A DNA stretch of 28,769 nt from Gemmatimonadota bacterium (GTDB taxonomy: Bacteria > GCA-2686955). Both the position numbers and the translations under genes were made by a program. Shown in pieces: positions 2 to 28,596 of this stretch (position 1 is the stretch's first letter; the number at the start of each line of letters is the position of its first letter). Under the pieces are notes generated by a model. That model saw only the letters and a list, made by a program, of their open reading frames with translations, searched no databases and had not been told where the DNA came from. The DNA lies in NCBI GenBank assembly GCA_002686955.1, contig NYZA01000038.1, positions 1-28,769 on the forward strand. Direction: 5' to 3'.

Positions 2-775
2 CAACCCCTCGTCGCCGACCTCGACGGCGACATAGATCTGGAGATATTCGCCGGAGGCAACCGCCCCTACATCTGGTCTCTCGAGCAGGACGGCTCGAGC
101 GTGGAGGGTTGGCCCTACTACTCCGATCACCAAAACTTCGGCACCGGCGCCCTGGCTGACCTCGACGAAGATGGCGACACCGATATCGTCTTTCAAGACT
201 ACTTCGGCCTGATCCACGTCTTCGACACTCCCGGTGTTTGGGACTACAAGCGGATCGAATGCGGCACATGGCTCTACGACAACTGGCATACCGGCGCTTA
301 CCACAAAGATCTCTACCGGGAAGCCGAATCCGCCAACACGATGATCGGTTTCGAAGCCGTCGCCGATACTTCGGCCTGGGGCCACGGCGCCATCCGCTTC
401 GCGACAGCCGAATCGCGCACCAAGGCGATCACATCGACGACAGAGATCAAAGTGCCCGCCACCCTCTATTATCGTACCGAAGTCCCTGTCTGGGAGGAGT
501 ACAGCCTCTGGGTCCGCATCCGCCGCGATGGCGCTTCGAAGGCCCGCCCCGATCTGGCCATCGAGATCGACGGCGACAAACGCGTCGGCGGCGGCCACCG
601 CGTCGCCGGCTCTCCGGGCCCGTGGGTGTGGTTCGAGATGGGGCGTCTGCCGCTGAAGGCGGGTGTGCATGATATCCGTGTGCGCGCACCGAAGCTCCCG
701 ATCGTGATCGACCGCTGGCTGCTCACGACGCGGACCCGTTTTCCGTTGCTCGCCGAGCGGCCGCATGCTTGGTGA
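2..775 (+). CDS. FG-GAP/VCBS-repeat protein, C-terminal part (5' end outside window)
   Basis: The reading frame is open from the window edge to the TGA at 773-775, so this is the 3' part of a longer gene. Two calcium-loop motifs of the FG-GAP/VCBS type are visible near the start: ADLDGDIDLEIF at about bases 17-52 and ADLDEDGDTDIVFQ at about 155-196. In known families such repeats form beta-propeller blades of secreted or surface proteins. After them comes a module of roughly 150 residues containing EAESA near its start and YSLWVRIRRDG, WVWFEMG and LKAGVHDIRV further on. This spacing of EAE, aromatic and AGxHxI elements resembles carbohydrate-binding (CBM6/35-like) beta-sandwiches, which is inference from pattern only. 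No sorting tail is visible at the C-terminus. The protein is probably exported, but the signal peptide would lie outside the window. The next clear feature is the remnant zone starting at about 836. Confidence 0.75.
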   Translation, partial: QPLVADLDGDIDLEIFAGGNRPYIWSLEQDGSSVEGWPYYSDHQNFGTGALADLDEDGDTDIVFQDYFGLIHVFDTPGVWDYKRIECGTWLYDNWHTGAYHKDLYREAESANTMIGFEAVADTSAWGHGAIRFATAESRTKAITSTTEIKVPATLYYRTEVPVWEEYSLWVRIRRDGASKARPDLAIEIDGDKRVGGGHRVAGSPGPWVWFEMGRLPLKAGVHDIRVRAPKLPIVIDRWLLTTRTRFPLLAERPHAW

Positions 776-835
776 TGGTCTGGCGGCTGGTCACCTGATG
801 TCCAGTGGGGCATAATCGACAGCCCGGACAAGCAG

Positions 836-1167
836 ATGACCAACCCGCCAGCCTTCCCCTCTGTCGACGACGCGCTCCTGAGTGAGGCCGTCAGAAGGTC
901 GCGTGCTCTATTCCCGGGCCGACTCGAGTGGGTGATGCGCGTTCGCTGGCGGAAGGTTGGCTGGAAAAGGCCGAATCCGATCTCGTCTGCGCGCGTACGA
1001 TGGCTGCGACGAAGGGACCGTACGACACTGCTTGCTTTCATGCTCAGCAAGCGGTCGAAAAGCTCCTGAAGGCATGGCTGACGCCGGCGGAGCAGCCGAT
1101 TCTCCGGACCCACGATGTGGAAGAGCTGGCGGATCTCTGCACCGCCCACGGTCTCGATCCCGAAGCT
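836..1167 (+). pseudogene. Remnant of a nucleotidyltransferase/HEPN (MntA/HepT-like) pair
   Basis: Two coding pieces in different frames lie end to end. From ATG 836 about 30 codons (MTNPPAFPSVDDALLSEAVR and onward) resemble the first helix of MNT-type nucleotidyltransferases, but the GSxxxG catalytic motif and everything after it are missing. From about 928, in another frame, comes a recognisable HEPN core: WLEKAESDLVCAR, then TACFHAQQAVEKLLKAWL, then THDVEELADLC. It stops matching at about 1167, before any C-terminal RX4-6H RNase motif. The same frame continues only through sequence that is antisense to the glycoside hydrolase remnant. In intact systems the MNT antitoxin AMPylates the HEPN RNase toxin. 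Here an internal deletion, a frame change and a truncation suggest neither protein is functional. The HEPN assignment is fairly firm; the MNT assignment rests on a short stretch and is weak. Confidence 0.5.
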
Positions 1168-4888: not shown

Positions 4889-6685
4889 ATGGCCGTCCAC
4901 CGCATCCGCAATTTCTGCATCATCGCGCATATCGATCACGGCAAGTCCACCTTGGCCGATCGCCTGCTGGAGCTGGCCGGAACGCTAACCGAGCGGACGA
5001 TGCGTTCCCAGGTTCTCGATGATATGGACCTTGAGCGGGAGCGGGGGATCACGATAAAGGCCCATCCGATCCGTCTCGCCTACTCCGCAGCCGACGGCGA
5101 AGAGTACCTGCTCACACTGATCGACACACCGGGCCACGTCGACTTCACCTACGAAGTCTCACGATCGCTACGGGCCTGCGAAGGGGCGATTCTGGTGGTC
5201 GACGCCAGCCAGGGCATCGAGGCACTGACGCTATCGAACCTCTATCTCGCGATGGAGAGCGAGCTCGAGATCGTTCCGGTCCTCAACAAGATCGACCTGC
5301 CCAGCGCCGACGTCGAAGGGATGACCACCCAGATCTCGGAGCTGATCGGCTGCGATCGGAGCGAAGTGCTTCCGGTGAGCGCCAAGACCGGAGACGGCTG
5401 CGACCAGGTTCTCGAGGCGGTCGTGCGCCAGATTCCACCACCCGCGGGCGATCCCGAAAAACCGTTCCGCGCTCTCGTCTTCGATTCCGAATACAACTCC
5501 TATCGTGGCGCGGTCTCGTACCTGAAGGTGGTCGACGGCGCCATTCGAGGGGGAGATCGCTTCAAGTTCGCCAGCCGCGAGACCTGCTTCGCGGCGGAAG
5601 AAGTGGGCTACTTTCGCCTCGAAATGGAGAAGACCCCGATCCTCAGCGCTGGAGAGGTCGGTTACGTGCTGGGAGGGATCAAAAACATCCGCGAAGTGCT
5701 GGTGGGCGACACCCTGATCGATCCTGAGGACCCTTCCGATCCGCTCCCCGGGTATCGGCCGAGCAAGTCGATGGTCTTCAGCGGGATCTACCCCTCCGAC
5801 GCGGACCGTTACGCCGATCTGAGGGACGCACTCGAACGTCTGCAACTCAACGACGCGAGCTTGACCTTCGAGCCGGAAACGAGCGAGGCGCTGGGCTTCG
5901 GCTTTCGTTGCGGGTTTCTCGGCCTTTTGCACATGGAGATCATCCAAGAAAGGATCGACCGGGAGCACAACCTGGAGATCGTCACGACGATGCCGAGCGT
6001 GCTCTATCGCGCGATCCTGAACAGCGGCGAGGAACGCTTCATCGACAACCCCGCCCATTTGCCGGAGCCGAAGCATCTGGACCACCTCGAGGAACCGCTG
6101 GTTCGCTCCACCGTGATCGTGCCGACGGAATATATCGGTGCGATCATGAAGCTGATGCAGGAGCGGCGGGGAATCCACCGTTCTCTCGGCTATCTCGATC
6201 CCACCCGCGCGGAGCTGCACTATGATCTGCCGCTCGCCGAGATCGTCTTCGATTTCTACGATCGATTGAAGTCGGTCAGCCGTGGTTATGCCTCGTTCGA
6301 CTACGATTTTCTCGAGTACCGCGAAGCCGAGCTGGTGAGGCTCGATATGCTGCTCAATGGCGACCTAGTCGACGCGCTCTCGATGGTGATTCACAACAAG
6401 AAGGCGCACGATTGGGGCCGAAAGGTGGCCAGCAAGCTCAAGAAACTGATACCGAGGCAGATGTACGAGGTTGTGATTCAGGCGGCAATCGGCAGCCGGG
6501 TCATCTCGCGGGCCGTGATCAAGCCCCTCAGAAAGAACGTCACTGCGAAATGCTATGGGGGAGACATCTCGCGCAAGAGAAAGCTCCTCGAGCGGCAAAA
6601 AGAGGGAAAGAAGCGAATGAAGCAGGTCGGCAAGATCGAGATTCCACAGGAAGCGTTCCACGCGGTCCTACAGGTTGAAGACTGA
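4889..6685 (+). CDS. lepA: Elongation factor 4 (LepA), ribosome-associated GTPase
   Basis: LepA is a cytosolic translational GTPase acting on the ribosome, linked to back-translocation and to 30S biogenesis. The 598 residues match the family's usual length of about 600. The G-domain motifs are complete: G1 AHIDHGKST at 13-21, G2 within RERGITIK, G3 DTPGH at 79-83, G4 NKID at 133-136 and G5 SAK at 164-166. The EF-G-like domains and the LepA-specific C-terminal domain follow, including PRQMYEVVIQAAIGSRVISR and the lysine/arginine-rich GGDISRKRKLLERQKEGKKR. The ATG at 4889 is preceded by only a weak GA-rich stretch. It is the first gene of the lepA-lepB-hemW-grpE-dnaJ-rsmE block; the 49-base gap upstream contains no terminator that I can see. 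Confidence 0.98.
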   Translation: MAVHRIRNFCIIAHIDHGKSTLADRLLELAGTLTERTMRSQVLDDMDLERERGITIKAHPIRLAYSAADGEEYLLTLIDTPGHVDFTYEVSRSLRACEGAILVVDASQGIEALTLSNLYLAMESELEIVPVLNKIDLPSADVEGMTTQISELIGCDRSEVLPVSAKTGDGCDQVLEAVVRQIPPPAGDPEKPFRALVFDSEYNSYRGAVSYLKVVDGAIRGGDRFKFASRETCFAAEEVGYFRLEMEKTPILSAGEVGYVLGGIKNIREVLVGDTLIDPEDPSDPLPGYRPSKSMVFSGIYPSDADRYADLRDALERLQLNDASLTFEPETSEALGFGFRCGFLGLLHMEIIQERIDREHNLEIVTTMPSVLYRAILNSGEERFIDNPAHLPEPKHLDHLEEPLVRSTVIVPTEYIGAIMKLMQERRGIHRSLGYLDPTRAELHYDLPLAEIVFDFYDRLKSVSRGYASFDYDFLEYREAELVRLDMLLNGDLVDALSMVIHNKKAHDWGRKVASKLKKLIPRQMYEVVIQAAIGSRVISRAVIKPLRKNVTAKCYGGDISRKRKLLERQKEGKKRMKQVGKIEIPQEAFHAVLQVED

Positions 6686-8909: not shown

Positions 8910-8939
8910 TTGACCATTGGCCGGGCGCAATGGTACTTT
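8910..8939 (+). promoter_or_regulatory. Putative grpE-dnaJ promoter with an internal palindrome
   Basis: TTGACC at 8910-8915 and TACTTT at 8934-8939 form a possible sigma-70 promoter with an 18-base spacer. Within it, ACCATTG (8913-8919) and CAATGGT (8928-8934) are a perfect 7-bp inverted repeat separated by 8 bases, touching both hexamers. That arrangement is typical of repressor operators. It does not match CIRCE, the HrcA site. The promoter and operator roles are inference. Confidence 0.4.
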
Positions 8940-9001
8940 ACCCGTTTCCTCTGAGCACGCCAGCGTCGGGCGGAGACTCCGAACCAGTGAGCGAAGGAAC
9001 G

Positions 9002-9769
9002 ATGCCCCAAGATACCGACTCGAAAGCCCCTGCCGATCCCCAGGCCGCCGAGGCTCGGAACGTCGACACCGAAGACGCCGCCCCGAGCCCGGATTCGGCA
9101 ACGTCCACCGATGCGGCCGCGGTGGAAGAAGGCGAGGCAGGAAGGGCCGAGCCCGAATCGGTGCCCAAGAAGGAGCCCAAGTCGACCGGTCGAGGTGGCA
9201 AGAAGGTGGCGGCCTTGAAGGCACGAATCAAGGAGCTAGAAGCCGAGAAGGAGAGGCTCGAGGCCGCCGAGGCGCATGCGCGGGAGCGATGGATGCGAAG
9301 CGCCGCGGAGTTCGAGAACTTCCGTAGGCGCACGATGAAGGAGAAGGCGGAGCTGATTCGCGGTGCCGCGGAAGGGGTCGCGACCAAGCTCCTCGACGTC
9401 ATGGACGCGCTATTCGCCGCTCGGATCGCGTCGGAGAATGGAGCGGGGCAGGCCGCCGCCGATCGGCTCCGCGAAGGGATCGGCCTGATCTCGGCGAAGC
9501 TCGAAGGCGTGCTCGAGAGCGAGGGGGTGCGGGCGATCGAGACGGAGATCGGAGCGGATTTCGATCCCCATGTGCACGAGGCCCTCGCCCAGGTCCCCTC
9601 CGACGAGCTCCCCGCCCACGCGATCCACAGCGTGGTCCAACGCGGCTACCTTCTCGGAGAAAAAGTGTTGCGACCCGCCCGAGTGACCGTCGTAGCGGAG
9701 CCGGAACCCGCCGAAGCGCCGGCCGAGAGCGCGGACGAAGGAGACGACAACGGAAACGGGGCGGACTAG
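9002..9769 (+). CDS. grpE: Nucleotide exchange factor GrpE
   Basis: GrpE releases ADP from DnaK in the Hsp70 cycle. The first 65 or so residues are an acidic, Ala/Pro/Glu/Ser-rich, probably disordered tail. A long coiled-coil helix (about 68-125, with [20 protein letters not shown]) follows, then the beta-wing with [20 protein letters not shown] and the terminal [21 protein letters not shown] second acidic tail of about 25 residues ends the protein. At 255 residues it is longer than E. coli GrpE (197), mainly because of the two tails. ATG 9002 is chosen because GAAGGA lies just upstream at 8993-8998; the frame is open further upstream but that part overlaps the putative promoter. The stop overlaps dnaJ's GTG by one base. 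No dnaK and no hrcA are present in this window. Confidence 0.95.
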
Positions 9770-10929
9770 TGCCGAGAGACTACTACGAGGTTTTGGACGT
9801 CGATCGCTCCGCCGATGCCGGCGGCATCAAGCGGGCCTATCGCAAGCTGGCGCTCGAGAATCACCCCGACCGGAATCCGGGCGACAAGAAGGCCGAAGAC
9901 CGTTTCAAGGAGGCGACGCAAGCCTACGAGGTGCTCTCCGATGATGCGAAACGGCAACGCTACGATCGATTCGGCCATGCCGGTGTCGATCCGAACGCCG
10001 GTGGGTTCGGCGGATTCAGCGCGGGAGGATTCGATCTTTCCGATGCCCTGCGTCGCTTCATGGAGGATTTCGGGGGAGGAGGAGGATTGGGAGATATCTT
10101 CGGTGCCGGAATGGGGCAGCGCGGCGCCGGTCCCAGGATCAGAAAGGGAGCCGATCTTCAGATCAAGCTCAAGCTGACCCTCGAAGAGATCGCGAAGGGC
10201 GTTCCGAAGAAGATCAAGGTCGCCCGGCTCGATCCCTGTTCGGAGTGCAATGGAACAGGGTCGAGGGCGGGAACGGAGCCGATGATCTGCGCCACCTGCA
10301 AGGGCCAGGGTGAGGTGCGCCAAGTGCAGCGCACGGTCTTCGGGCAGTTCGTAAACGTCGGGCGCTGTCCCGCCTGCCGCGGCGAAGGGCGTGTAGTCTC
10401 CGATCCCTGCACCTCTTGCCACGGTGAGGGACATGCGCGGGTCCGCACGACGATCAACGTGAAGATCCCGGCAGGGGTCGAGGCAGGGAACTACATCCCG
10501 CTTTCCGGCCAGGGGAACATCGGTCCCAAGGGCGGTCCCCGCGGCGACCTCTTCGTCATCATCCAGGAGGAGGAGCACAGACGTTTCGAACGCCGCGGGG
10601 AGCACCTCGTGCTAGATCTTCCGATCACCTTCTCGCAGGCCGCGCTTGGTGATCAGGTCGAGGTCCCCACGCTCGATGGAACGGTGCGATTGGCCGTTCC
10701 CCCGGGGATCCCCTCGGGGAAGGTGCTCCGAGTTCGCGGAAAGGGGATGCCGCGCATCGACGATTACGGCACCGGCGATCTGCTAGTGCGCGTGGCGGTA
10801 TGGACACCCCAGAAGCTCACCAAGGCGGAACGAGCTCTCTTTCAGGAGCTCGCGCAATGCGACGGAATCAAGCCTCCGGAGCCGGGCAGGGGCTTCTTCG
10901 AGCGGGTTCGTGACGCATTCCGTGGATAG
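9769..10929 (+). CDS. dnaJ: Chaperone DnaJ (Hsp40, class I)
   Basis: DnaJ delivers unfolded clients to DnaK and stimulates its ATPase. The complete class I architecture is present: the J domain with HPD at 32-34, a Gly/Phe-rich linker (about 72-125), and four CXXCXGXG zinc motifs (C157SECNGTG, C174ATCKGQG, C200PACRGEG, C214TSCHGEG). The two beta-barrel substrate domains follow, with [19 protein letters not shown] and [19 protein letters not shown]. Length is 386 residues, close to E. coli's 376. The GTG start at 9769 is fixed by the domain start and overlaps grpE's TAG, so the two chaperones are probably made in a coupled way. The usual gene between them, dnaK, is absent. Confidence 0.97.
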
Positions 10930-10941
10930 AGCAGTCAAGAG

Positions 10942-11631
10942 TTGATCCGCGCCTTCGTCCCCGCGATCCCGAATCCGGGAGAGTCGCTTCTCCTCGATCG
11001 GGAAGAGCGCCGGCACGCGCGATCGGCCAGACGGAGCCGCGATGGCGATCCGATCGAGCTTCTCGATGGAGCCGGCCGAGTGGCGTTGGCCCACCTCGAG
11101 GATGACGCGTCGAGGGCACGAATCGAGGCGATCGAAGACGCACTTCCTCCTCCCGATATCGCTCTGGCGGTCGCCGTGGCGCGCGGCGAGCGCTTCGATT
11201 CGCTCGTGGAGAAAGGGACCGAGCTCGGAATCGCATCGATCGAGCCGATCGTCTGCGCCCGCTCGATTCCCCTGAGGGGTCGATCGCGCTTGGAGCGCTG
11301 GCGGCGCGTATCGGTGGCCGCGGCGAAACAGAGCCGTCAGCCCTGGCTACCCCGAATCGCCGCCCCGGCACCCCTGGGTTCGGTGATCGGTGACGGCCGC
11401 CTCCTGATCGCACTCGATCCCGAGGGGGAAAAGGTGCCGATTCCGGAGGTCCTCGCTCTCCCTCCGCTCCGCCTGGTCATAGGTCCCGAAGGCGGCTTCG
11501 ACGATTCCGAGCGGGCGCTCTTCGCCGCCTCGGGCGCCCGGATGGTATCGTTGCCGACCGCGATCTTGCGGGTCGAGACCGCTGCCCTGGTCGCCGCGGT
11601 TCTGGCCCTGCACGCTCTCGGTCGAGCCTGA
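10942..11631 (+). CDS. rsmE: 16S rRNA m3U1498 methyltransferase RsmE
   Basis: RsmE is a SPOUT-class methyltransferase that methylates N3 of U1498 in 16S rRNA of assembled 30S subunits. Visible elements are an N-terminal PUA-like part (IRAFVPAI, then DREERRHARSARR), EKGTELGIASIEPI, the AAAKQSRQPWLP stretch, the knot motif LVIGPEGGFDDSE and LPTAILRVETAAL near the end. The last is normally LGxRILRTETA, so the substrate-side loop differs slightly. The 229 residues are near the family norm of about 240. TTG at 10942 is the likely start, 12 bases after dnaJ, and begins with the typical IRxF motif. The prmA gene that often sits between dnaJ and rsmE is missing. Confidence 0.93.
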   Translation: MIRAFVPAIPNPGESLLLDREERRHARSARRSRDGDPIELLDGAGRVALAHLEDDASRARIEAIEDALPPPDIALAVAVARGERFDSLVEKGTELGIASIEPIVCARSIPLRGRSRLERWRRVSVAAAKQSRQPWLPRIAAPAPLGSVIGDGRLLIALDPEGEKVPIPEVLALPPLRLVIGPEGGFDDSERALFAASGARMVSLPTAILRVETAALVAAVLALHALGRA

Positions 11632-11664
11632 TGCGCCCCGTCGAAGATCGAAAGGACACAAGAA

Positions 11665-12006
11665 ATGTCGGACTGCCTCTTCTGCTCGATTGCCAAGGGT
11701 GACATCCCGGCCGACATCGTTATGGAGACTCCCGACGCGGTCGCCTTCCGAGACATCGCTCCCGAGGCCCCCACGCACATTCTCGTCATCCCGCGCGAAC
11801 ACGTAGAAAGCGTCGCCCGGGCCGGCGCCGATCGGAACGATGCGATGCTCGGTTCGTTGATGCGCGCGGCGACCGACCTTGCCGTCCAAGAAGGGATCGA
11901 GTCGTACCGCATCGTCACCAATGTGGGAGAGGACGCCGGCCAGAGCGTTTTCCATCTTCATCTTCATCTGCTCGGTGGACGAGCGATGAGTTGGCCGCCG
12001 GGTTGA
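11665..12006 (+). CDS. HIT-family nucleotide phosphoramidase (HinT-like)
   Basis: This is a histidine-triad hydrolase of the HinT/PKCI group, which cleaves purine nucleoside phosphoramidates such as AMP-lysine. The HXHXHXX signature is in SVFHLHLHLLGGR (His97, His99, His101). CLFCSIAKGDIPADIV at the start, FRDIAPEAPTHILVIPREH in the middle and the Trp-Pro C-terminus are typical. At 113 residues it is the standard size. The ATG at 11665 is preceded by AAAGGA at about 11651. It follows rsmE by 33 bases and may be part of that transcript. Its physiological substrate cannot be inferred here. Confidence 0.95.
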   Translation: MSDCLFCSIAKGDIPADIVMETPDAVAFRDIAPEAPTHILVIPREHVESVARAGADRNDAMLGSLMRAATDLAVQEGIESYRIVTNVGEDAGQSVFHLHLHLLGGRAMSWPPG

Positions 12007-12105: not shown

Positions 12106-12303
12106 ATGCCCGTGATCCGGGTCAAAGACAACGAGCCCTTCGAGAAGGCTCTGAGACGATTCAACAAGACCTGCCAGAAAGAGGGAATCCTCTTCGAGGT
12201 CAAGAGGAAGTCCCGTTTCGAGAAGCCGAGCGAGCGGAAGAAGCGCAAAATGGCCGCGGCCAGGAAAAAGGCCCGCAAAGCGGAGCGCATGCTCGTTTCG
12301 TAG
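12106..12303 (+). CDS. rpsU: 30S ribosomal protein S21
   Basis: S21 is a small basic protein of the 30S head-platform region, needed in E. coli for initiation. The 65-residue chain starts PVIRVKDNEPFEKALRRFNK and ends in the usual lysine/arginine-rich tail (ERKKRKMAAARKKARKAE). GAAAGGA at about 12086-12092 precedes it with slightly long spacing. An overlapping ATG at 12093 in another frame is closer to that site but gives a protein with no resemblance to anything. A weak TAGACT (12046-12051) and TAATAC (12071-12076) pair could be a promoter, but the 19-base spacing is poor. It heads a rpsU-mutS2-dnaG-rpoD arrangement related to the classical macromolecular synthesis operon. Confidence 0.96.
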   Translation: MPVIRVKDNEPFEKALRRFNKTCQKEGILFEVKRKSRFEKPSERKKRKMAAARKKARKAERMLVS

Positions 12304-12344
12304 CTCTCGATCCAGACTTCCAGAACGCGCTGAAATTCACCAGA

Positions 12345-12382
12345 AGCCGGCTGGCGACGTAAGATCGTCGCAGCTGGCTTTT
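12345..12382 (+). terminator. Intrinsic terminator/attenuator between rpsU and mutS2
   Basis: AGCCGGCTGGCGACG (12345-12359) pairs with CGTCGCAGCTGGCT (12366-12379), with one mismatch and one bulged G, around the loop TAAGAT. The stem ends in TTTT (12379-12382). The short T run suggests partial rather than complete termination. In the E. coli rpsU-dnaG-rpoD operon a terminator in the same position after rpsU makes S21 much more abundant than primase; the same role is inferred here. Confidence 0.65.
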
Positions 12383-12414
12383 GCGATGTACATGACGAGC
12401 GCGCGGACAAGGGA

Positions 12415-14802
12415 ATGAACGAGCTGACCCTCGAGAAGCTGGCCTTCCGCGACGTGATCGAGCTGATCGCCGGGCAGGCCCAATCGGAGCTCGGCGTCGA
12501 GCGCGTGCGCGCCCTCGTCCCGAGCACGGACCCCGATTGGGTGCGCCATGAACACGCGGTGGCGTTCGAGGCGATGCGGGCGCTCGACGAGGGGACACCG
12601 ATTTCGTTGTCGGGTGCGATCGATATTCGGCCCTCGCTGAAATACGCGGCACGTCCCGGCACCCATCTCGAAGCAGAATCGCTCTCGTCGATCGCGGCGA
12701 CTTGCGGGGTGGCGGAGGGTGCTCGCGCCTCCATCGCGGATGGCGCGGAGCTGCCGCTCCTGTTCGCGATCGTCAATCCGATCTCGATCCCGGGCGGGCT
12801 GGCGGCGGCGATCGAGAGCGCGATCGGCCCGGGCGGTGAGATCCTCGATGCCGCTTCGCCGGAGCTCAAGCGGATTCGGCGCGCCCGAAACGATCTGGAG
12901 CGGCGGGCTCGCGACGAGCTCGACCGCATCGTGAAAGGTCTGGGGGACAAGGGACACCTTCAGGACTCGCTCTACACCCTCCGGGATGGTCGATTCGTGG
13001 TCCCGGTTCGGGCCGACCGCCGCCGCCAAGTCCGGGGGATCGTCCACGATCGTTCCGCCAGCGGCGAGACCTACTTCATCGAACCGGCCCGCCTGGTCGA
13101 GCTCGGGAACAGCCTTCGCGATCTGGAGGCCCAGGAGCGCGCCGAGATCGTTCGCATACTGACGCAGCTCACCGACCGGGTGAGGGGAGGGATCGGGGAG
13201 CTTTCCGATGCTCTCGACCGGATCGGCCGTGTCGACGAAGTGTTCGCGCGGGCGCGCTTCGGCAGGGCGCACGATGGCATCCGACCGAAGATCGGTCCGC
13301 CGAAAGGCTCGCTGCGAATCGTGGACGGGCGGCATCCTCTTCTGGAGCGGTCGCTGGGACACGAGCGGATCGTGCCCCTCGATCTGGAGATCGGTGGCCC
13401 CTCATGCGCCGTGTTGATCACCGGACCGAACACCGGCGGCAAGACCGTCGCCTTGAAGACGGTCGGGCTGCTGGTTCTTCTCTCCCAGTCCGGGGTTCCC
13501 GTCCCGGCGTCGGAGGGCACTTCGCTCCCGGTGCTCGGCCACGTTTACACCGACATCGGCGATGGACAATCGCTGGAAGCGAACCTCTCCACATTCAGTG
13601 CCCACGTCGCGAACCTCGCCACGATCTGCGCGGAGGCGGAATCCGGTTCGCTCGTCCTTCTCGACGAGCTCGGAACCGGCACCGATCCCGACGAGGGGGC
13701 CGCTCTCGCGGCGTCGGTGGTGGAGCATCTGGCCGACGCGGGCGCCCGGGTATTGGCCACAACCCATCTGGGCCAGCTCAAGCTTCTGGCCGCCGCCCAC
13801 GAGGGGGTCGAGAATGCGGCGATGGAGTTCTCGAAGGAGAAGCTCGCCCCCACCTACCGGCTCCGTCAGGGGATCCCGGGCCATTCCTATGGGATCGAGA
13901 TCGCCCGCCGCCTGGGGCTGCCCTCCGGCGTGATCGAGAGCGCGGAGAATCGACGGGGTCGGGCCGAGACCGATATCACCGCCATGACCGCCGAGATCGA
14001 GGAGCGCTTGCGTAGAGCCGAAGAACGCGAATCGGAAGCGAGTGCCCTACTGGCTCGAGCCGATCGCACCTTCGCCGATGCCGCGGAGCTACACGAGGAG
14101 GTCGAGGCCCGCGAGGCGGAGCTGCGCAAGGATCTCGCCTCGAAGGTCGACAGCATGGCCCGGGACGCTCGCCGAGAGCTCGAGCGATCGGTTCAGGAGC
14201 TTCGTGAGGGCGGAGCGGACAGAGCTGCGATCAAGCGCGGCCGGGCTGCGATCGAAAAGGTGCGGGCGAGTCACTCGAGAGAGGCGGATTCTCCGAAGAA
14301 GGGGCCTCGGAAAGAGCGAGCTCGGAGCGCGGAGCCCCACGCCGGCCACCAGCCTCTGGCGCCCGGAGACAACGTGAAGGTGCCCGATTTCGGTTTCGGG
14401 GGTGTCATCGAATCGATCAAAGGGGGCCGTGCGCGAATCCGCAAGGGTGCGCTCTCGATGGAGGTCGAGCTACGCAAGCTGCGGCGCGCCGACGCCCCCA
14501 CGGCCAAAGGGGGCTGGGAACGCGCCGGAGCCGGCGCCGAAGGGCCCCCATCGTGGAGGCTCGATCTGCGGGGGCAAAGGGTGGAAGAGGCGGAAGAGGC
14601 GCTCGATCGTTTCCTCGATGCATCGATCCTGGAGGGGATCGAGAACCTGGAGATCATCCATGGAAAAGGGACGGGAGCGCTGAGAAAACGGGTGCAAGAG
14701 ATCTTGAAGCTCGACCCGCGGGTGGCGAGCTCGAGACTCGGCGGGTGGAACGAAGGGGGAGGTGGTGCGACGATCGCCACCCTTCGCGGGAGCCGGTCTT
14801 GA
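12415..14802 (+). CDS. mutS2: MutS2 ATPase with C-terminal Smr domain
   Basis: MutS2 is a MutS-related ATPase without the mismatch-recognition domains. In some bacteria it suppresses recombination, and in B. subtilis it acts on collided ribosomes. The core and clamp regions lead to the Walker A GPNTGGKT at 337-344, then the Walker B region LVLLDELGTGTDPDEG and ATTHLGQLK. A long charged coiled coil (about 520-640) follows, then a KOW-like segment (PGDNVKVPDFGFGGVIESIK). The Smr domain ends the protein, with LDLRG at 716-720 and HGKG at 749-752. The second Smr residue set is intact (LDLR rather than the LDxH nuclease form), so endonuclease activity is uncertain. Length is 795 residues, usual for the family. 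The start at ATG 12415 has AAGGGA directly upstream. A position between rpsU and dnaG is unusual. Confidence 0.96.
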   Translation: MNELTLEKLAFRDVIELIAGQAQSELGVERVRALVPSTDPDWVRHEHAVAFEAMRALDEGTPISLSGAIDIRPSLKYAARPGTHLEAESLSSIAATCGVAEGARASIADGAELPLLFAIVNPISIPGGLAAAIESAIGPGGEILDAASPELKRIRRARNDLERRARDELDRIVKGLGDKGHLQDSLYTLRDGRFVVPVRADRRRQVRGIVHDRSASGETYFIEPARLVELGNSLRDLEAQERAEIVRILTQLTDRVRGGIGELSDALDRIGRVDEVFARARFGRAHDGIRPKIGPPKGSLRIVDGRHPLLERSLGHERIVPLDLEIGGPSCAVLITGPNTGGKTVALKTVGLLVLLSQSGVPVPASEGTSLPVLGHVYTDIGDGQSLEANLSTFSAHVANLATICAEAESGSLVLLDELGTGTDPDEGAALAASVVEHLADAGARVLATTHLGQLKLLAAAHEGVENAAMEFSKEKLAPTYRLRQGIPGHSYGIEIARRLGLPSGVIESAENRRGRAETDITAMTAEIEERLRRAEERESEASALLARADRTFADAAELHEEVEAREAELRKDLASKVDSMARDARRELERSVQELREGGADRAAIKRGRAAIEKVRASHSREADSPKKGPRKERARSAEPHAGHQPLAPGDNVKVPDFGFGGVIESIKGGRARIRKGALSMEVELRKLRRADAPTAKGGWERAGAGAEGPPSWRLDLRGQRVEEAEEALDRFLDASILEGIENLEIIHGKGTGALRKRVQEILKLDPRVASSRLGGWNEGGGGATIATLRGSRS

Positions 14803-14818
14803 AGCCGAAACCACGACG

Positions 14819-16555
14819 ATGCGCATAGCCGACGAGACCGTAGAGCAGGTCCGCGCGGCGACCGACATCGTCTCGCTGGTCGGCGAGGCGGTATCGCTCC
14901 GGCGATCCGGCCGGAACCACATGGGACTCTGCCCCTTCCATCAGGAGCGAACGCCCTCCTTCTCCGTGAACCCCGAAAGGGGGATCTTCCACTGCTTTGG
15001 ATGTGGGAAGGGGGGAGATGTCTTCTCGTTCGTCATGGAAACCCAGGGGGTGGGCTTTCTCGATGCCGTGAGGATCCTGGCGGAGCGATCGGGCATCGAG
15101 ATCGAGCGGAGCGAAGGGCAGAGTCACGCCGAGGCCCTCTACCGTATGAACGCCTTCGCGGCCCGCTTCTATCAAGAGGTCTTGATGCAGCGATCCGAGG
15201 GCGCGGTCGCCCGGAGATACGCGCAGGCGCGAGGGATTTCGCCCGATCAGGCGAAGCATTTCGGCCTCGGCTTCGCCCCCGACGCCTGGGACGCTCTGGG
15301 CCGGCGTGCCGCTTCAGATGGCTTTTCCCAGGATCTGCTGAAAACGGGTGGTCTTTCACTTGACAACCGCAACCGTCCAGGTCAGCATGATCGTTTTCGC
15401 AATCGTCTCATCTTCCCGATTCGGGCGGCAACCGGCCGCGTGGTTGCTTTCGGTGGACGGAGCCTCGGCGACGACGAGGGTCCGAAGTACATCAACTCCC
15501 CCGAGACTCCCGTCTATCGGAAAGGTGACCACCTTTTTGGTCTCTCCGAAGCGCGAGAAGAGATCCGGAGGGCGCGATCGGTGGTGGTGGTCGAAGGCTA
15601 CACCGACTGTCTGGCGATGCACCGTGCCGGCGCCGCAAACACCGTGGCGGCACTGGGTACGGCCTTCACACCCAGGCAGGCGGAGCTACTGCGAAGGTAT
15701 GCCGATGACGTGATTCTGGTGTTCGACGCCGATGCCGCGGGGCAGGCGGCGGCGCTCCGCGGGATGGGGATTCTGCTGGCGCAGGGGCTGCAAGTCAAGA
15801 CAGCGGTCCTCCCGGCGGGGAACGATCCAGACTCCCTCCTAGCCGAGGGGGGAGCCGGCGCCATCACCGAAGCGATCTCGCGCCCCGTCGACGCCGTGGA
15901 ACACCATCTGGAAGAGCTGGTCGGGCGCGCGCGCGATGCGGGACCGGCGGCTCGAGTCAAGAGCGTCGCACCCCTGATCGAAGCCCTTCAGCCGATCGCG
16001 GATTCAGCTTTGCGAGATGCCTACCTGGCCGAGATCGCCAATCGGATCCGGATCGACCCGGGAGCCTTGCATCGAAAGGCCCCCAGGCGAACCATGAGAG
16101 AAGAGCAGGAACATCGCGGGCAGGGAGAAGAGCCTCCGCGGCTGGACGCTTGCTCCAGGGAGCTCTTGCGGCTCGCCCTATCGGATCTCGCGGGCAAGAC
16201 CTTCGCGAGAATCGATGCGGCGCGGATCGCCGATGGAGATGTTCGCGAGATCTACACGATTCTGGCCAAGGAGTACGAGGAATCGGGCGAGGTGCGGCTC
16301 GGACGGGTGCTCGATCAGATCCCGAGCGAACCGCTCCGAACCGTTCTGACCGGCATCGCGACCAGCGCCGAGACCGAAGCGACCGATCTCGACACCCTCT
16401 TGGAAGACGTGGTCCAGGAGATCGAAGAGACAGTAGGTGCCCAGCGCCGCTGGGAGCTGAATCGGCGGCTCGATCAGGAGGACGACCCGGATCGACGAAA
16501 GGAGATTGTTCTCGAACTCACTAAGCTGTTGCGGAAAAAGCAACGGCGGATTTGA
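14819..16555 (+). CDS. dnaG: DNA primase DnaG
   Basis: Primase makes the RNA primers for lagging-strand synthesis at the replication fork. The N-terminal CHC2 zinc ribbon has Cys38, His41, Cys59 and Cys62 in LCPFHQERTPSFSV and FHCFGCGKGGD. The Toprim core has VVEGYTDCLAMHRAG with Glu259 and FDADAAGQAAALRG with Asp303 and Asp305. The last 130 or so residues are an alpha-helical DnaB-interacting domain. At 578 residues it matches E. coli DnaG (581). ATG 14819 is chosen because the family begins here; the open frame upstream to 14762 overlaps the mutS2 end. Spacing to mutS2 is 16 bases, so the two are probably co-transcribed, although only a weak ribosome-binding site is visible. A likely rpoD promoter overlaps the stop. 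Confidence 0.97.
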   Translation: MRIADETVEQVRAATDIVSLVGEAVSLRRSGRNHMGLCPFHQERTPSFSVNPERGIFHCFGCGKGGDVFSFVMETQGVGFLDAVRILAERSGIEIERSEGQSHAEALYRMNAFAARFYQEVLMQRSEGAVARRYAQARGISPDQAKHFGLGFAPDAWDALGRRAASDGFSQDLLKTGGLSLDNRNRPGQHDRFRNRLIFPIRAATGRVVAFGGRSLGDDEGPKYINSPETPVYRKGDHLFGLSEAREEIRRARSVVVVEGYTDCLAMHRAGAANTVAALGTAFTPRQAELLRRYADDVILVFDADAAGQAAALRGMGILLAQGLQVKTAVLPAGNDPDSLLAEGGAGAITEAISRPVDAVEHHLEELVGRARDAGPAARVKSVAPLIEALQPIADSALRDAYLAEIANRIRIDPGALHRKAPRRTMREEQEHRGQGEEPPRLDACSRELLRLALSDLAGKTFARIDAARIADGDVREIYTILAKEYEESGEVRLGRVLDQIPSEPLRTVLTGIATSAETEATDLDTLLEDVVQEIEETVGAQRRWELNRRLDQEDDPDRRKEIVLELTKLLRKKQRRI

Positions 16556-16581
16556 CTTCACCCATGGCTTTGGCCTAATGG
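16552..16581 (+). promoter_or_regulatory. Putative rpoD promoter overlapping the dnaG stop
   Basis: TTGACT at 16552-16557, which includes the dnaG TGA, and TAATGG at 16576-16581 have an 18-base spacer. Transcription would start near 16588, giving a leader of about 150 bases before the rpoD ATG. Internal promoters at this point are known in other rpsU-dnaG-rpoD operons. This is a prediction from sequence. Confidence 0.45.
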
Positions 16582-16598
16582 TGTAGAAATATGCGCGT

Positions 16599-16728
16599 CC
16601 GCGCCATTCGCTCACGGCGATGGTGCGGGTAAGAGGATGATCGGCAAGGGAATCTGCATCGCGCCGATCGGACGAGCGTCCTTTGGGCGCTCCTGTTGCC
16701 GCGGTGGGTCTTTGGGCCCTCCCGCGGC
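16599..16728 (+). ncRNA. Structured rpoD leader with four consecutive stem-loops
   Basis: Four hairpins follow one another in the untranslated leader. H1 pairs CCGCGCCATTCG (16599-16610) with CGATGGTGCGG (16618-16628), with one bulge and one G-T pair. H2 pairs GATCGGC (16639-16645) with GCCGATC (16663-16669). H3 pairs GAGCGTCC (16674-16681) with GGGCGCTC (16685-16692) around a TTT loop. H4 pairs GCCGCGG (16698-16704) with CCGCGGC (16722-16728), with an inner GGG/CCC. H4 ends directly at the G-rich Shine-Dalgarno of rpoD. H3 and H4 share the element CTTTGGGC followed by CTCC. No known riboswitch consensus is recognised, and no T tract follows any stem. Confidence 0.5.
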
Positions 16729-16737
16729 GGGGGAACC

Positions 16738-18447
16738 ATGAGCAGAGCACTGTTGCAGAAGAAGATCGAGCTCCTGAAGCGGGTATCCGACTACCGCGGC
16801 GAGGTCACCAACGGCGTCCTCGATCGTGACGTTCGTGGCGGTTCCATCACCGCCAACGAAGCGGATCGGCTCGTACTCTCGGTCAAAGCCAGGACATTCG
16901 GGTACGTGGATTCCCGCGACGACCTGCTTGGCGGCCGCGACGAGGCGGAGCTGCGTCGTGTACTCGACAGCTCGTCGAAGCTGATGAAGTTCGACGATCC
17001 GGTCCGGATGTACCTGCGCGAAATGGGCAAGGTGCCCCTCTTGGACCGCGAGGGAGAGGTGAGGATCGCCCGCCGAATCGAAGATGGGCAGAAGAGCATC
17101 AATGCCAATCTGCTCCGATTTGATCTGGTTCTCGACGAATTCCTGGCCGCTTTCGCTCGGCTCGAGTCCGGTGAGGTACGGCTCGAGGAGATCATCCAGG
17201 TCGACACGGCGGCGGTTCCGGGCTCCACGGCGAAGCAGGATCATGAGCTTCTCACCGAAGTTCGAGACAACATGGTCGAGCTGCGCGAGGAGCTCCACGA
17301 GCATTACGCGGGTCTCGATGATCCGTCCCGCTCCGCGGCCGAAAAGAAAGCGATCCGGAAGCGGATCGAGACGCGGCGACGCCGCATCGGGGCGGAGATC
17401 ACACGCGTGAATCTGAAGGCCACGCATGTCGCCCATCTCCGGCGCCACCTTTTGGGGGCAGATGAGGAGCTGCGGAAGAAGGAAGAGGCGATCGCGATCG
17501 AGCTATCCCGTCTCGGTGTCTCCTACGATCAACTGCAGAACCTCACCCGCAACATCACGAAGGGAAAACCGACCCGGCACAACGAAAAAAACGTGCTCGC
17601 GACCGCAAAGGCGGTTCAGGAGCACAAGGATCACATAGCGACGGTCGAGCAGGCGAACCACATCACCAAAGAAGCGTTGCGACGCGGAATCGATCGCATT
17701 CTCGAGCACGAGGCGGCCAAGAAGCAGGCGAAGACCGAGATGGTCGAGGCCAACGTCCGCTTGGTGATCTCGATCGCGAAGCGCTACACGAACCGTGGCC
17801 TGGAATTCCTCGATCTGATCCAGGAGGGGAATTCCGGTCTGATGCGCGCGGTCGACAAATTCGACTACAAGAAGGGCTACAAGTTTTCGACCTACGCGAC
17901 CTGGTGGATCCGCCAAGCGATCACACGCGCGATCGCCGACCAGGCGAGGACCATCCGCGTGCCGGTGCACATGATCGAGGCGATCAACAAGGTGGTGAAG
18001 GCCTCGCGCCGTCTGCTCCAGGAGTACGGCCGGGAGCCCACTCCGATCGAGATCGCCAACCGTCTCAATCTGCCCGTGGAGAAGGTGAAGAGTGTGCTCA
18101 AGGTGGCGCAGGATCCGATCTCTCTCGACCGTCCGATCGGGGAGGACGAGGACTCCTACATCGGTGATTTCATCGAAGACACCAAAGTGGTCTCGCCCGC
18201 GCAATCTTCCGCCTTCTCGATGCTCCAAGATCAGATGGGCTCGGTCCTCTCGACCCTGACCCAGCGCGAGGAAAGGGTGATCCGCCTCCGTTTCGGTCTG
18301 GGCGACGGATGCCCCCGCACACTCGAAGAGGTCGGCAACATCTTCAACGTGACCCGCGAGCGGGTGCGTCAGATCGAGGCGAAGGCGCTGCGCAAGCTCC
18401 GCCCCCCCTCGCGTAGCCGCAAGCTGCACGGTTTCGTCGATCTTTGA
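16738..18447 (+). CDS. rpoD: Primary RNA polymerase sigma factor (sigma-70, RpoD)
   Basis: This is the housekeeping sigma factor. Region 1.1 is present in reduced form (residues about 1-75), and region 1.2 has [20 protein letters not shown] non-conserved region of about 200 charged residues (about 130-330) follows. Region 2 starts near residue 334 with [16 protein letters not shown] and includes [20 protein letters not shown]. Region 3 has [12 protein letters not shown], and region 4.2 has [20 protein letters not shown]. Two conserved positions differ from the usual sequence: NSGLMRAV instead of NIGLM in region 2.2, and LRPPSRSR instead of LRHPSRS near the end. The ATG at 16738 is preferred over the upstream in-frame start because GGGGGGAA sits just before it and the family starts here. 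Length is 569 residues. It is convergent with recQ, with only 22 bases between them and no obvious terminator. Confidence 0.97.
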
Positions 18448-26296: not shown

Positions 26297-28596
26297 GGCC
26301 GACGACACCGCTCCACCGCCCCCATCCCCACGAGAGCGCGCGGCTCCACGTCACGGGAGGGGCGCTCTACGTCGACGAGCTTCCCGAGGCGCGCAACGCC
26401 CGGATCGGGCTGATCGTTCCCGCCGGTGTCGCCCACGGTCGAGTCGTTCGAATCGAGCGCTCACGGGCCGAGTCGGCCCCGGGAATCGATGCGGTGCTTC
26501 TCGCCTCCGACATACCGGGTGAGGCGCTGATCGGTCCGATCGCTCACGACGAGCCGGTCCTCGCCGGCGACGAGGTCCGCTACGCCGGCCAGCCGATTGC
26601 GTTGATCGTGGGCGAGTCGCTCGAGGCCTGCCGAGATGCCGCGGGGCTGATGCGATTCGAGATCGAGGAGCTCCCGGCGACATTGAGCATCGCCGCCGCA
26701 ATCGCCGAAGAGAGCTTCTTCGGTGATCCCCACATCATCCGGCGCGGTGATGTCGAAGCCGCCCTCGAGAGCGCCCAAACGCGGGTCGAGGGCGAGCTCT
26801 CGACTCCCGCCCAGGATCATTTCTATCTCGAGACCCAGGCCGCGCTCGCTCTGCCCCTCGAGGCGGGGGGTTGGCAGATCTTCAGCTCCTCCCAGAATCC
26901 CACGGAGGTGCAGCAATTGGTGGCCCGCACCCTCGGCGTCGGTAGGCATCGGGTCGTCTGCGATGTCCCCCGGATGGGGGGTGCTTTCGGCGGAAAGGAG
27001 TCGCAGGGCGCCCTCTTCGCCTGCCTGGCCGCGATCGGCGCCGCCCGAATCGGCCGGCCCGTGAAGTTGCGCCTGACCCGCCGCGAGGATATGGCGATGA
27101 CCGGCCCTCGGCATCCTTTCTGGTCAACCTACGAGGCCGGATTCGATCGCGATGGCCTCATCCAGGCGTTCAAAGTGGCGACCTACGCCGACGGCGGATT
27201 CTCGCTCGATCTCTCCCCCGCGATCCTGAGCCGCGCCCTCTTTCATCTCGACAACAGCTACTACATCCCCACTCTCCGCTTCGAAGGCCGCATCTGCCGC
27301 ACCCACAAACCCTCGACGACCGCATTCCGCGGCTTCGGCGGCCCACAGGGGATGGCCGTCATCGAAGACGCCATCAATCGCTTCGCGGAGCGCACCGGCC
27401 GCGATCCCACCAGCGTGCGCGTCCGGAACTTCTACGGCGAAGCCCCCCGAGACCGCGCTCCCTACCACCAGCGCATCCCGGAGCCGCGCCTTTCGAGGAT
27501 CCACTCGGAGCTCAGCGCCGACGCCGAGGTGGAGAGCCGGGCAAGTGAGATCGCCGTCTTCAACGCCGGCTCTCTCCACGTGAAGCGTGCGCTCGCCTTC
27601 CAGCCGGTGAAATTCGGCATCGCCTTCACCAATCGCATCCTCAACCAGGCCGGCGCGCTGGTGCATGTCTATCGCGACGGCACGGTCCAGGTCAATCACG
27701 GCGGGACCGAGATGGGGCAAGGTCTGCACACCAAGATGCAGGTTGTCTGCGCCGATGAGCTGGGAATCCCGCTCGATAATGTGCGGGTGATGCGCACCTC
27801 TACCGGCAAGGTGCCGAACACGACACCCACCGCGGCCTCGAGCGGATCGGATCTGAACGGCCAGGCGATCGCCGACGCCTGCGCGAAGCTGCGGGCTCGT
27901 CTGGGTCCGGTCGCCGCCGGCATGATGGGGCGCGCCTGCGACGAGGATCTGTGCTTCGAAGGCGACCGGATCGCGACGACCGACGCCGAGAGGTCGGTCC
28001 CCTTCCACGAAGTGGCGATGCAGGCGTGGCTCGAGCGGGTTTCCCTCTCCGCCACCGGCTACTACGCCACACCGGGGATCTCTTACGACATTGAGGCCGG
28101 ACGCGGTTGTCCCTTCTTCTACTTCGCTTACGGCGGCGCCTTCGTGGAGGTCGCGCTCGATGGACGAACCGGCCGCCACCGGCTGCTGCGCGTCGACATC
28201 TTGCACGACGTGGGCAACTCACTGGTTCCCAGCATCGATCGGGGCCAGATCGAGGGCGGATTCCTGCAAGGTGTCGGTTGGCTCACCTGCGAAGAGCGGA
28301 TCGAGAGCCCCGACGGCCGCGTCGTCACCCTCGGCCCCTCTACATACAAGATTCCAGCGGCTGGAGACGCTCCGCGGGAGCTGCGGATCCGCCTGCTCGA
28401 CCGAGCCGGCGAGTCCCGGACGATCGGCGGGTCCAAAGCGGTCGGTGAGCCCCCCTTCATGCTGGCGCTGGGCGTGGTCACCGCGCTACGCCAGGCGGTC
28501 GCGGCCTTTGATGGAAGGACCGCAAGCGAAGTTGAGCTCCGTCTTCCCGCGACTCCGGAGTCCCTTCTTCGAGCGATCGAGACGCGAGCCGGCTGA
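26293..28596 (+). CDS. xdhB: Xanthine dehydrogenase large, molybdopterin-binding subunit
   Basis: The large subunit binds the molybdenum cofactor and hydroxylates hypoxanthine to xanthine and xanthine to urate. Glu236 in GGAFGGKES, Arg314 in ILSRALFHLDN and Arg346 in FRGFGGPQG match by motif and spacing the purine-binding Glu802, Arg880 and Arg912 of bovine XDH. The catalytic Glu719 is in SKAVGEPPF. The GTEMGQGLHTK and TAASSGSDLNGQA cofactor motifs are also present. The Glu and Arg pair separates XDH from aldehyde oxidases, so substrate assignment is fairly secure. Length is 767 residues, as in Rhodobacter XdhB. The XdhC maturation factor and other purine catabolism genes are not in the window. 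The ATG overlaps the xdhA stop by four bases. Confidence 0.96.
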   Translation: MRPTTPLHRPHPHESARLHVTGGALYVDELPEARNARIGLIVPAGVAHGRVVRIERSRAESAPGIDAVLLASDIPGEALIGPIAHDEPVLAGDEVRYAGQPIALIVGESLEACRDAAGLMRFEIEELPATLSIAAAIAEESFFGDPHIIRRGDVEAALESAQTRVEGELSTPAQDHFYLETQAALALPLEAGGWQIFSSSQNPTEVQQLVARTLGVGRHRVVCDVPRMGGAFGGKESQGALFACLAAIGAARIGRPVKLRLTRREDMAMTGPRHPFWSTYEAGFDRDGLIQAFKVATYADGGFSLDLSPAILSRALFHLDNSYYIPTLRFEGRICRTHKPSTTAFRGFGGPQGMAVIEDAINRFAERTGRDPTSVRVRNFYGEAPRDRAPYHQRIPEPRLSRIHSELSADAEVESRASEIAVFNAGSLHVKRALAFQPVKFGIAFTNRILNQAGALVHVYRDGTVQVNHGGTEMGQGLHTKMQVVCADELGIPLDNVRVMRTSTGKVPNTTPTAASSGSDLNGQAIADACAKLRARLGPVAAGMMGRACDEDLCFEGDRIATTDAERSVPFHEVAMQAWLERVSLSATGYYATPGISYDIEAGRGCPFFYFAYGGAFVEVALDGRTGRHRLLRVDILHDVGNSLVPSIDRGQIEGGFLQGVGWLTCEERIESPDGRVVTLGPSTYKIPAAGDAPRELRIRLLDRAGESRTIGGSKAVGEPPFMLALGVVTALRQAVAAFDGRTASEVELRLPATPESLLRAIETRAG

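Follow-up and report, generated by a model that had tools for sequence, protein, structure and literature searches.

The window analysed here, a 28,769-nucleotide stretch of a Gemmatimonadota genome (contig NYZA01000038.1), carries four genes on the plus strand that lead up to the primary sigma factor. The first is rpsU (12106–12303), which encodes ribosomal protein S21 (Pfam PF01165, E-value 7.4e-20; 88% identical in the relative described below) and opens the macromolecular-synthesis operon. Then come mutS2 (12415–14802), with MutS_V and Smr domains, the primase gene dnaG (14762–16555, assigned by Pfam) and rpoD (16738–18447), whose product has sigma-70 regions 1.2, 2, 3 and 4. The true start of dnaG is probably 14819, as judged from an ATG kept in the relative and a tblastn alignment that begins at residue 19. 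The relative is JALXCG010000176.1 (Gemmatimonadetes bacterium), and all comparison within the phylum rests on two genomes, the window's included. Both have the order rpsU-mutS2-dnaG-rpoD, with mutS2 sitting between rpsU and dnaG, and rpsU, dnaG and rpoD are linked in the order that defines the macromolecular-synthesis operon. A literature search yielded no paper on this gene combination. Upstream of the operon, on the same strand, positions 8930–12006 hold grpE, dnaJ, an RsmE-like RNA methyltransferase gene and a HIT protein gene; this group comes after lepA and a HemN-like gene, so that a chaperone cluster adjoins the sigma-factor operon.

The spacer between dnaG and rpoD measures 182 nt in the window and 219 nt in the relative. 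An earlier note on this DNA had described four consecutive hairpins that fill most of it, and this description is accurate for three of them. H1 (16599–16628, 13 bp, z −5.0), H3 (16674–16692, 8 bp with a UUU loop, z −4.6) and H4 (16698–16728, z about −4.2), all on the plus strand, are each strong. H2 (approximately 16639–16670, same strand), in which GATCGGC pairs with GCCGATC across a large loop, is weak, with a z of −1.2 and 36/300 shuffles equal to it. The last stem does reach the rpoD Shine-Dalgarno sequence, as the note had said: H4 ends at C16728, and GGGGGAA (16729–16735) starts at the next position. The letters of this sequence are identical in the relative, as is the ATG start codon of rpoD, and in the folding model weak extensions of H4 pair part of it.

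Folding of the wider region 16582–16745, which the note had proposed, gave −83 kcal/mol, more stable than any of 200 shuffles (z −3.74). The hairpin run itself (16599–16728) has a z of −3.84, with 1/500 shuffles as good, and its energy lies below that of all 382 same-length stretches sampled from both strands of the window; for 130-base stretches of either strand the mean z is near 0. Across tests, the z of the leader fold ranged from −3.1 to −3.8 against shuffled sequence. The spacer between these cistrons thus holds the stable stem-loop looked for in spacers of selective RNA processing and stabilisation. Elsewhere in the window, two 130-base stretches also reach a folding z of about −5, at 26701–26830 (plus strand, inside a molybdopterin dehydrogenase gene) and 751–880 (minus strand); no inverted repeat of at least 12 bases was found in either.

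Several further features proposed for the leader fared less well. The CTTTGGGC element repeated in H3 and H4 had been read as a duplication, but a repeat of an 8-mer or longer occurs in 119/500 shuffles (24%), and the element is absent from the relative. A likely promoter had been placed at the dnaG stop, where our scan found no sigma-70-like site; however, the relative has in common with the window a plus-strand block at 16552–16590, comprising TTGACT, which spans the dnaG stop, and CCTAnTGnTGTAnAA farther downstream (ungapped identity 23/44, concentrated in two blocks). A promoter within this block, which contains no consensus sigma-70 site, is possible but unproven. The note's statement that the leader belongs to no known riboswitch or ribosomal leader class holds, as Rfam covariance models gave no match to it either at the gathering threshold or at E-values up to 5. 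Two other candidates were rejected. A dispersed repeat of REP or MITE type is contradicted by H4 being single-copy in the genome at 0–3 mismatches and by the lack of any near-exact copy of H3; a short leader reading frame (ATG at 16591, MRVRAIRSRRWCG) meets indels in the relative, which has no matching start or stop.

Comparison with the relative singles out H4. The two spacers align with a score of 75.8, against 21.6 ± 9.2 for shuffles, and by eye the conservation falls mostly in three places: just after the dnaG stop, at and near H1, and in the stretch that runs from H4 past the Shine-Dalgarno sequence to the start codon. In a MAFFT alignment made from sequence only, H4 retains every one of its 12 pairs in register in the relative, six of them invariant, five changed on one side and one changed on both (G-C to C-G); when the partners are shifted by 1–3 columns, pairing falls to 42–68%. 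Shuffling the 3′ letters of the stem (238/500) is powerless with two sequences, so we instead adopted a substitution null, in which the seven observed substitutions (five transitions and two transversions) were placed at random stem positions. All 12 pairs survive in 0.3–0.5% of such trials (P 0.003–0.005), a value that assumes the seven changes to be independent and unselected and that, with two genomes, cannot establish family-wide covariation. Among the five one-sided differences, four appear as G-U or U-G in the relative and one as U-G in the window. Such pairs form on the sense RNA only, so the sense fold of H4 in the relative (−22.5) is stronger than the antisense fold (−11.4). This preference points to the mRNA, not a DNA palindrome, as the target of selection, and the constraint on H4 looks like one that acts at the RNA level.

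The rest of the leader is less constant. H1 has a counterpart of approximately 13 pairs at the corresponding place in the relative, in a shifted register (z −2.3) and less stable, at −10.1 to −10.6 kcal/mol compared to about −20 to −21.6 in the window; we count conservation of H1 as probable. H2 and H3 have no conserved equivalents there. Between H1 and H4 the relative forms a different strong hairpin, GCAGCGGCGGC-GUU-GCCGCCGUUGU (z −4.6), and its entire leader is no more stable than shuffles (z −0.7). As neither H2 and H3 nor the overall stability is conserved, the series of four hairpins is specific to the window genome; the two leaders share H4, probably also H1, and a middle part with some structure. 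The note had proposed stem conservation among relatives as a test, and in this one relative H4 is conserved, H1 weakly so, and H2 and H3 are not. We also see that in the relative (L079, around 6195–6225) an AACAAUG that includes the rpoD start codon is perfectly complementary to a CAUUGUU within the coding region; this hairpin was rejected as a common element, having two mismatches in the window.

It could be argued that the hairpins arose by chance in a GC-rich spacer, and that H4 was kept through sequence constraint close to the Shine-Dalgarno sequence, plus luck. The lack of conservation of H2, H3 and overall stability agrees with this, as does the small sample of two genomes, and hairpins that abut the Shine-Dalgarno sequence as strongly as H4 are not very rare in shuffles (14/150 for the window and 5/150 for the relative). 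We nevertheless consider non-functional structure somewhat unlikely, given the z of −3.8 for the hairpin run, the preservation of pairing by all seven H4 stem substitutions and the sense-strand preference. Selection on a structured rpoD leader is supported by the comparison for H4, and weakly for H1.

Structure is also present at the start of the operon. The spacer between rpsU and mutS2 contains a strong plus-strand hairpin (12341–12383; MFE −30.7, z −5.5) whose 3′ arm ends in a short U run (UUUU), and the corresponding spacer of the relative is likewise structured (z −3.0). In E. coli, terminator T1 is located after rpsU, the place that this hairpin occupies in the window, although a terminator scan made no plus-strand call on it. 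Studies of promotion and termination in the macromolecular-synthesis operon are listed in PMC2824700. In the other phyla sampled, dnaG and rpoD mostly lie close together or overlap, at about −13 to +9 nt with one case at about +68 nt, distances that are approximate because starts were inferred where the RpoD N-terminus aligned. As the two genes so often abut or overlap, a long spacer is not a default. Among distant leaders, folding covered two loci only, one from Gemmatimonadales with a long spacer (L053) and one from Krumholzibacteriia with a short one (L033), and neither gave an obviously H4-like hairpin; a scan of viral contigs for the conserved Shine-Dalgarno block gave no match.

Hairpins between operon genes commonly tune gene output, and the operon context here suggests that gene dosage is under ordinary intercistronic control. 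Tentatively, we favour an interpretation of the leader as an intercistronic mRNA element, combining a processing or stability boundary with a hairpin against the Shine-Dalgarno sequence that together uncouple rpoD output from that of dnaG. This draws on the z of the leader fold, the conservation and sense preference of H4, the operon order, the second structured spacer, the long dnaG-rpoD spacer and the precedent for processing; the points against it are the sample of two genomes, the unconserved H2 and H3, the z of −0.7 for the relative's leader and the Shine-Dalgarno hairpins that shuffles produce. The polycistronic transcript would be cut or trimmed within the dnaG-rpoD spacer, and the leader hairpins would then protect the rpoD mRNA at its 5′ end. 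H4 may keep the ribosome-binding site just beside a stable stem, with the Shine-Dalgarno sequence outside the conserved part, and H2 and H3 could be a genus-specific reinforcement of the same barrier. The yield of rpoD would in this way be set independently of dnaG; most likely, on our analysis, the hairpin run tunes the amount of sigma factor made from the common operon.

In a rival reading, H4 or the hairpin run is a cis-regulatory operator: the sigma factor itself, S21, another RNA-binding protein or a ligand would bind it and so control rpoD translation by opening or closing the Shine-Dalgarno sequence, for which the exact placement of the conserved H4 and the partial pairing of that sequence by weak extensions in the window model would be suitable. 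However, the H4 loop and upper-stem letters differ between the two genomes (UUUG vs AUGG), the extension that pairs the Shine-Dalgarno sequence is not common to both, no Rfam class applies and the literature search yielded no precedent, so we regard such an operator as unlikely. Modelled accessibility of the Shine-Dalgarno sequence itself differs between window and relative and varies with the flanks included. The more specific proposal of the earlier note, an autoregulatory or stress-responsive leader, finds no support in the analysis: no known operator is seen, the modelled H4 stem shows no thermometer-like melting up to 80 °C, and two of the four hairpins and the putative duplication are absent from the relative. 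A lineage-specific cis-regulatory RNA whose hairpin at the Shine-Dalgarno sequence feeds the level of the primary sigma factor back on its own translation is accordingly quite improbable.

Attenuation, with polymerase pausing or transcript termination at the hairpins of the dnaG-rpoD spacer, seems very improbable: H3 and H4 are strong, compact, GC-rich stems and a hairpin does stand after rpsU in place of E. coli T1, but none of the leader hairpins is followed by a U run or forms a terminator-like site, and the ensemble, whose minimum-energy and centroid structures agree, shows no sign of a competing antiterminator fold. An RNA thermometer controlling rpoD is scarcely credible despite the hairpin at its Shine-Dalgarno sequence, because model heating to 80 °C leaves the main H4 stem intact and opens, by 70 °C, only the weak extension close to the Shine-Dalgarno sequence, which itself lies outside the conserved stem.

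The intercistronic element that we favour is ordinary in kind and new as an instance, and the general picture would stay unchanged by it. The cell's requirements for primase, S21 and the primary sigma factor differ widely in amount, although a single operon often encodes all three. In E. coli rpsU-dnaG-rpoD, a terminator follows rpsU and decay of the dnaG mRNA is initiated by RNase E. That operon resembles the window in gene order, in the structured spacer after rpsU and in having a spacer before rpoD; it differs in that the window has mutS2 between rpsU and dnaG and a long hairpin run directly before rpoD. Stem-loops in operon spacers determine how the mRNAs on either side are processed and how stable they are, and the E. 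coli operon is listed among those processed (PMC10311766), whereas for the window we infer processing from sequence and folding. The cip-cel operon of Ruminiclostridium cellulolyticum (PMC10311766) offers a further parallel, with consecutive stable stem-loops between genes needed in unequal amounts, although its genes and phylum differ from those of the window, where spacer cleavage is again a prediction. Finally, sigA, the primary sigma gene in Gram-positive macromolecular-synthesis operons, also has its own level apart from dnaG, there by means of extra promoters (PMC2824700). In the window we found RNA structure and no consensus promoter, and a conserved hairpin at the ribosome-binding site of rpoD would mean that this uncultured phylum meets the unequal demand by structuring the spacer instead of adding visible promoters.
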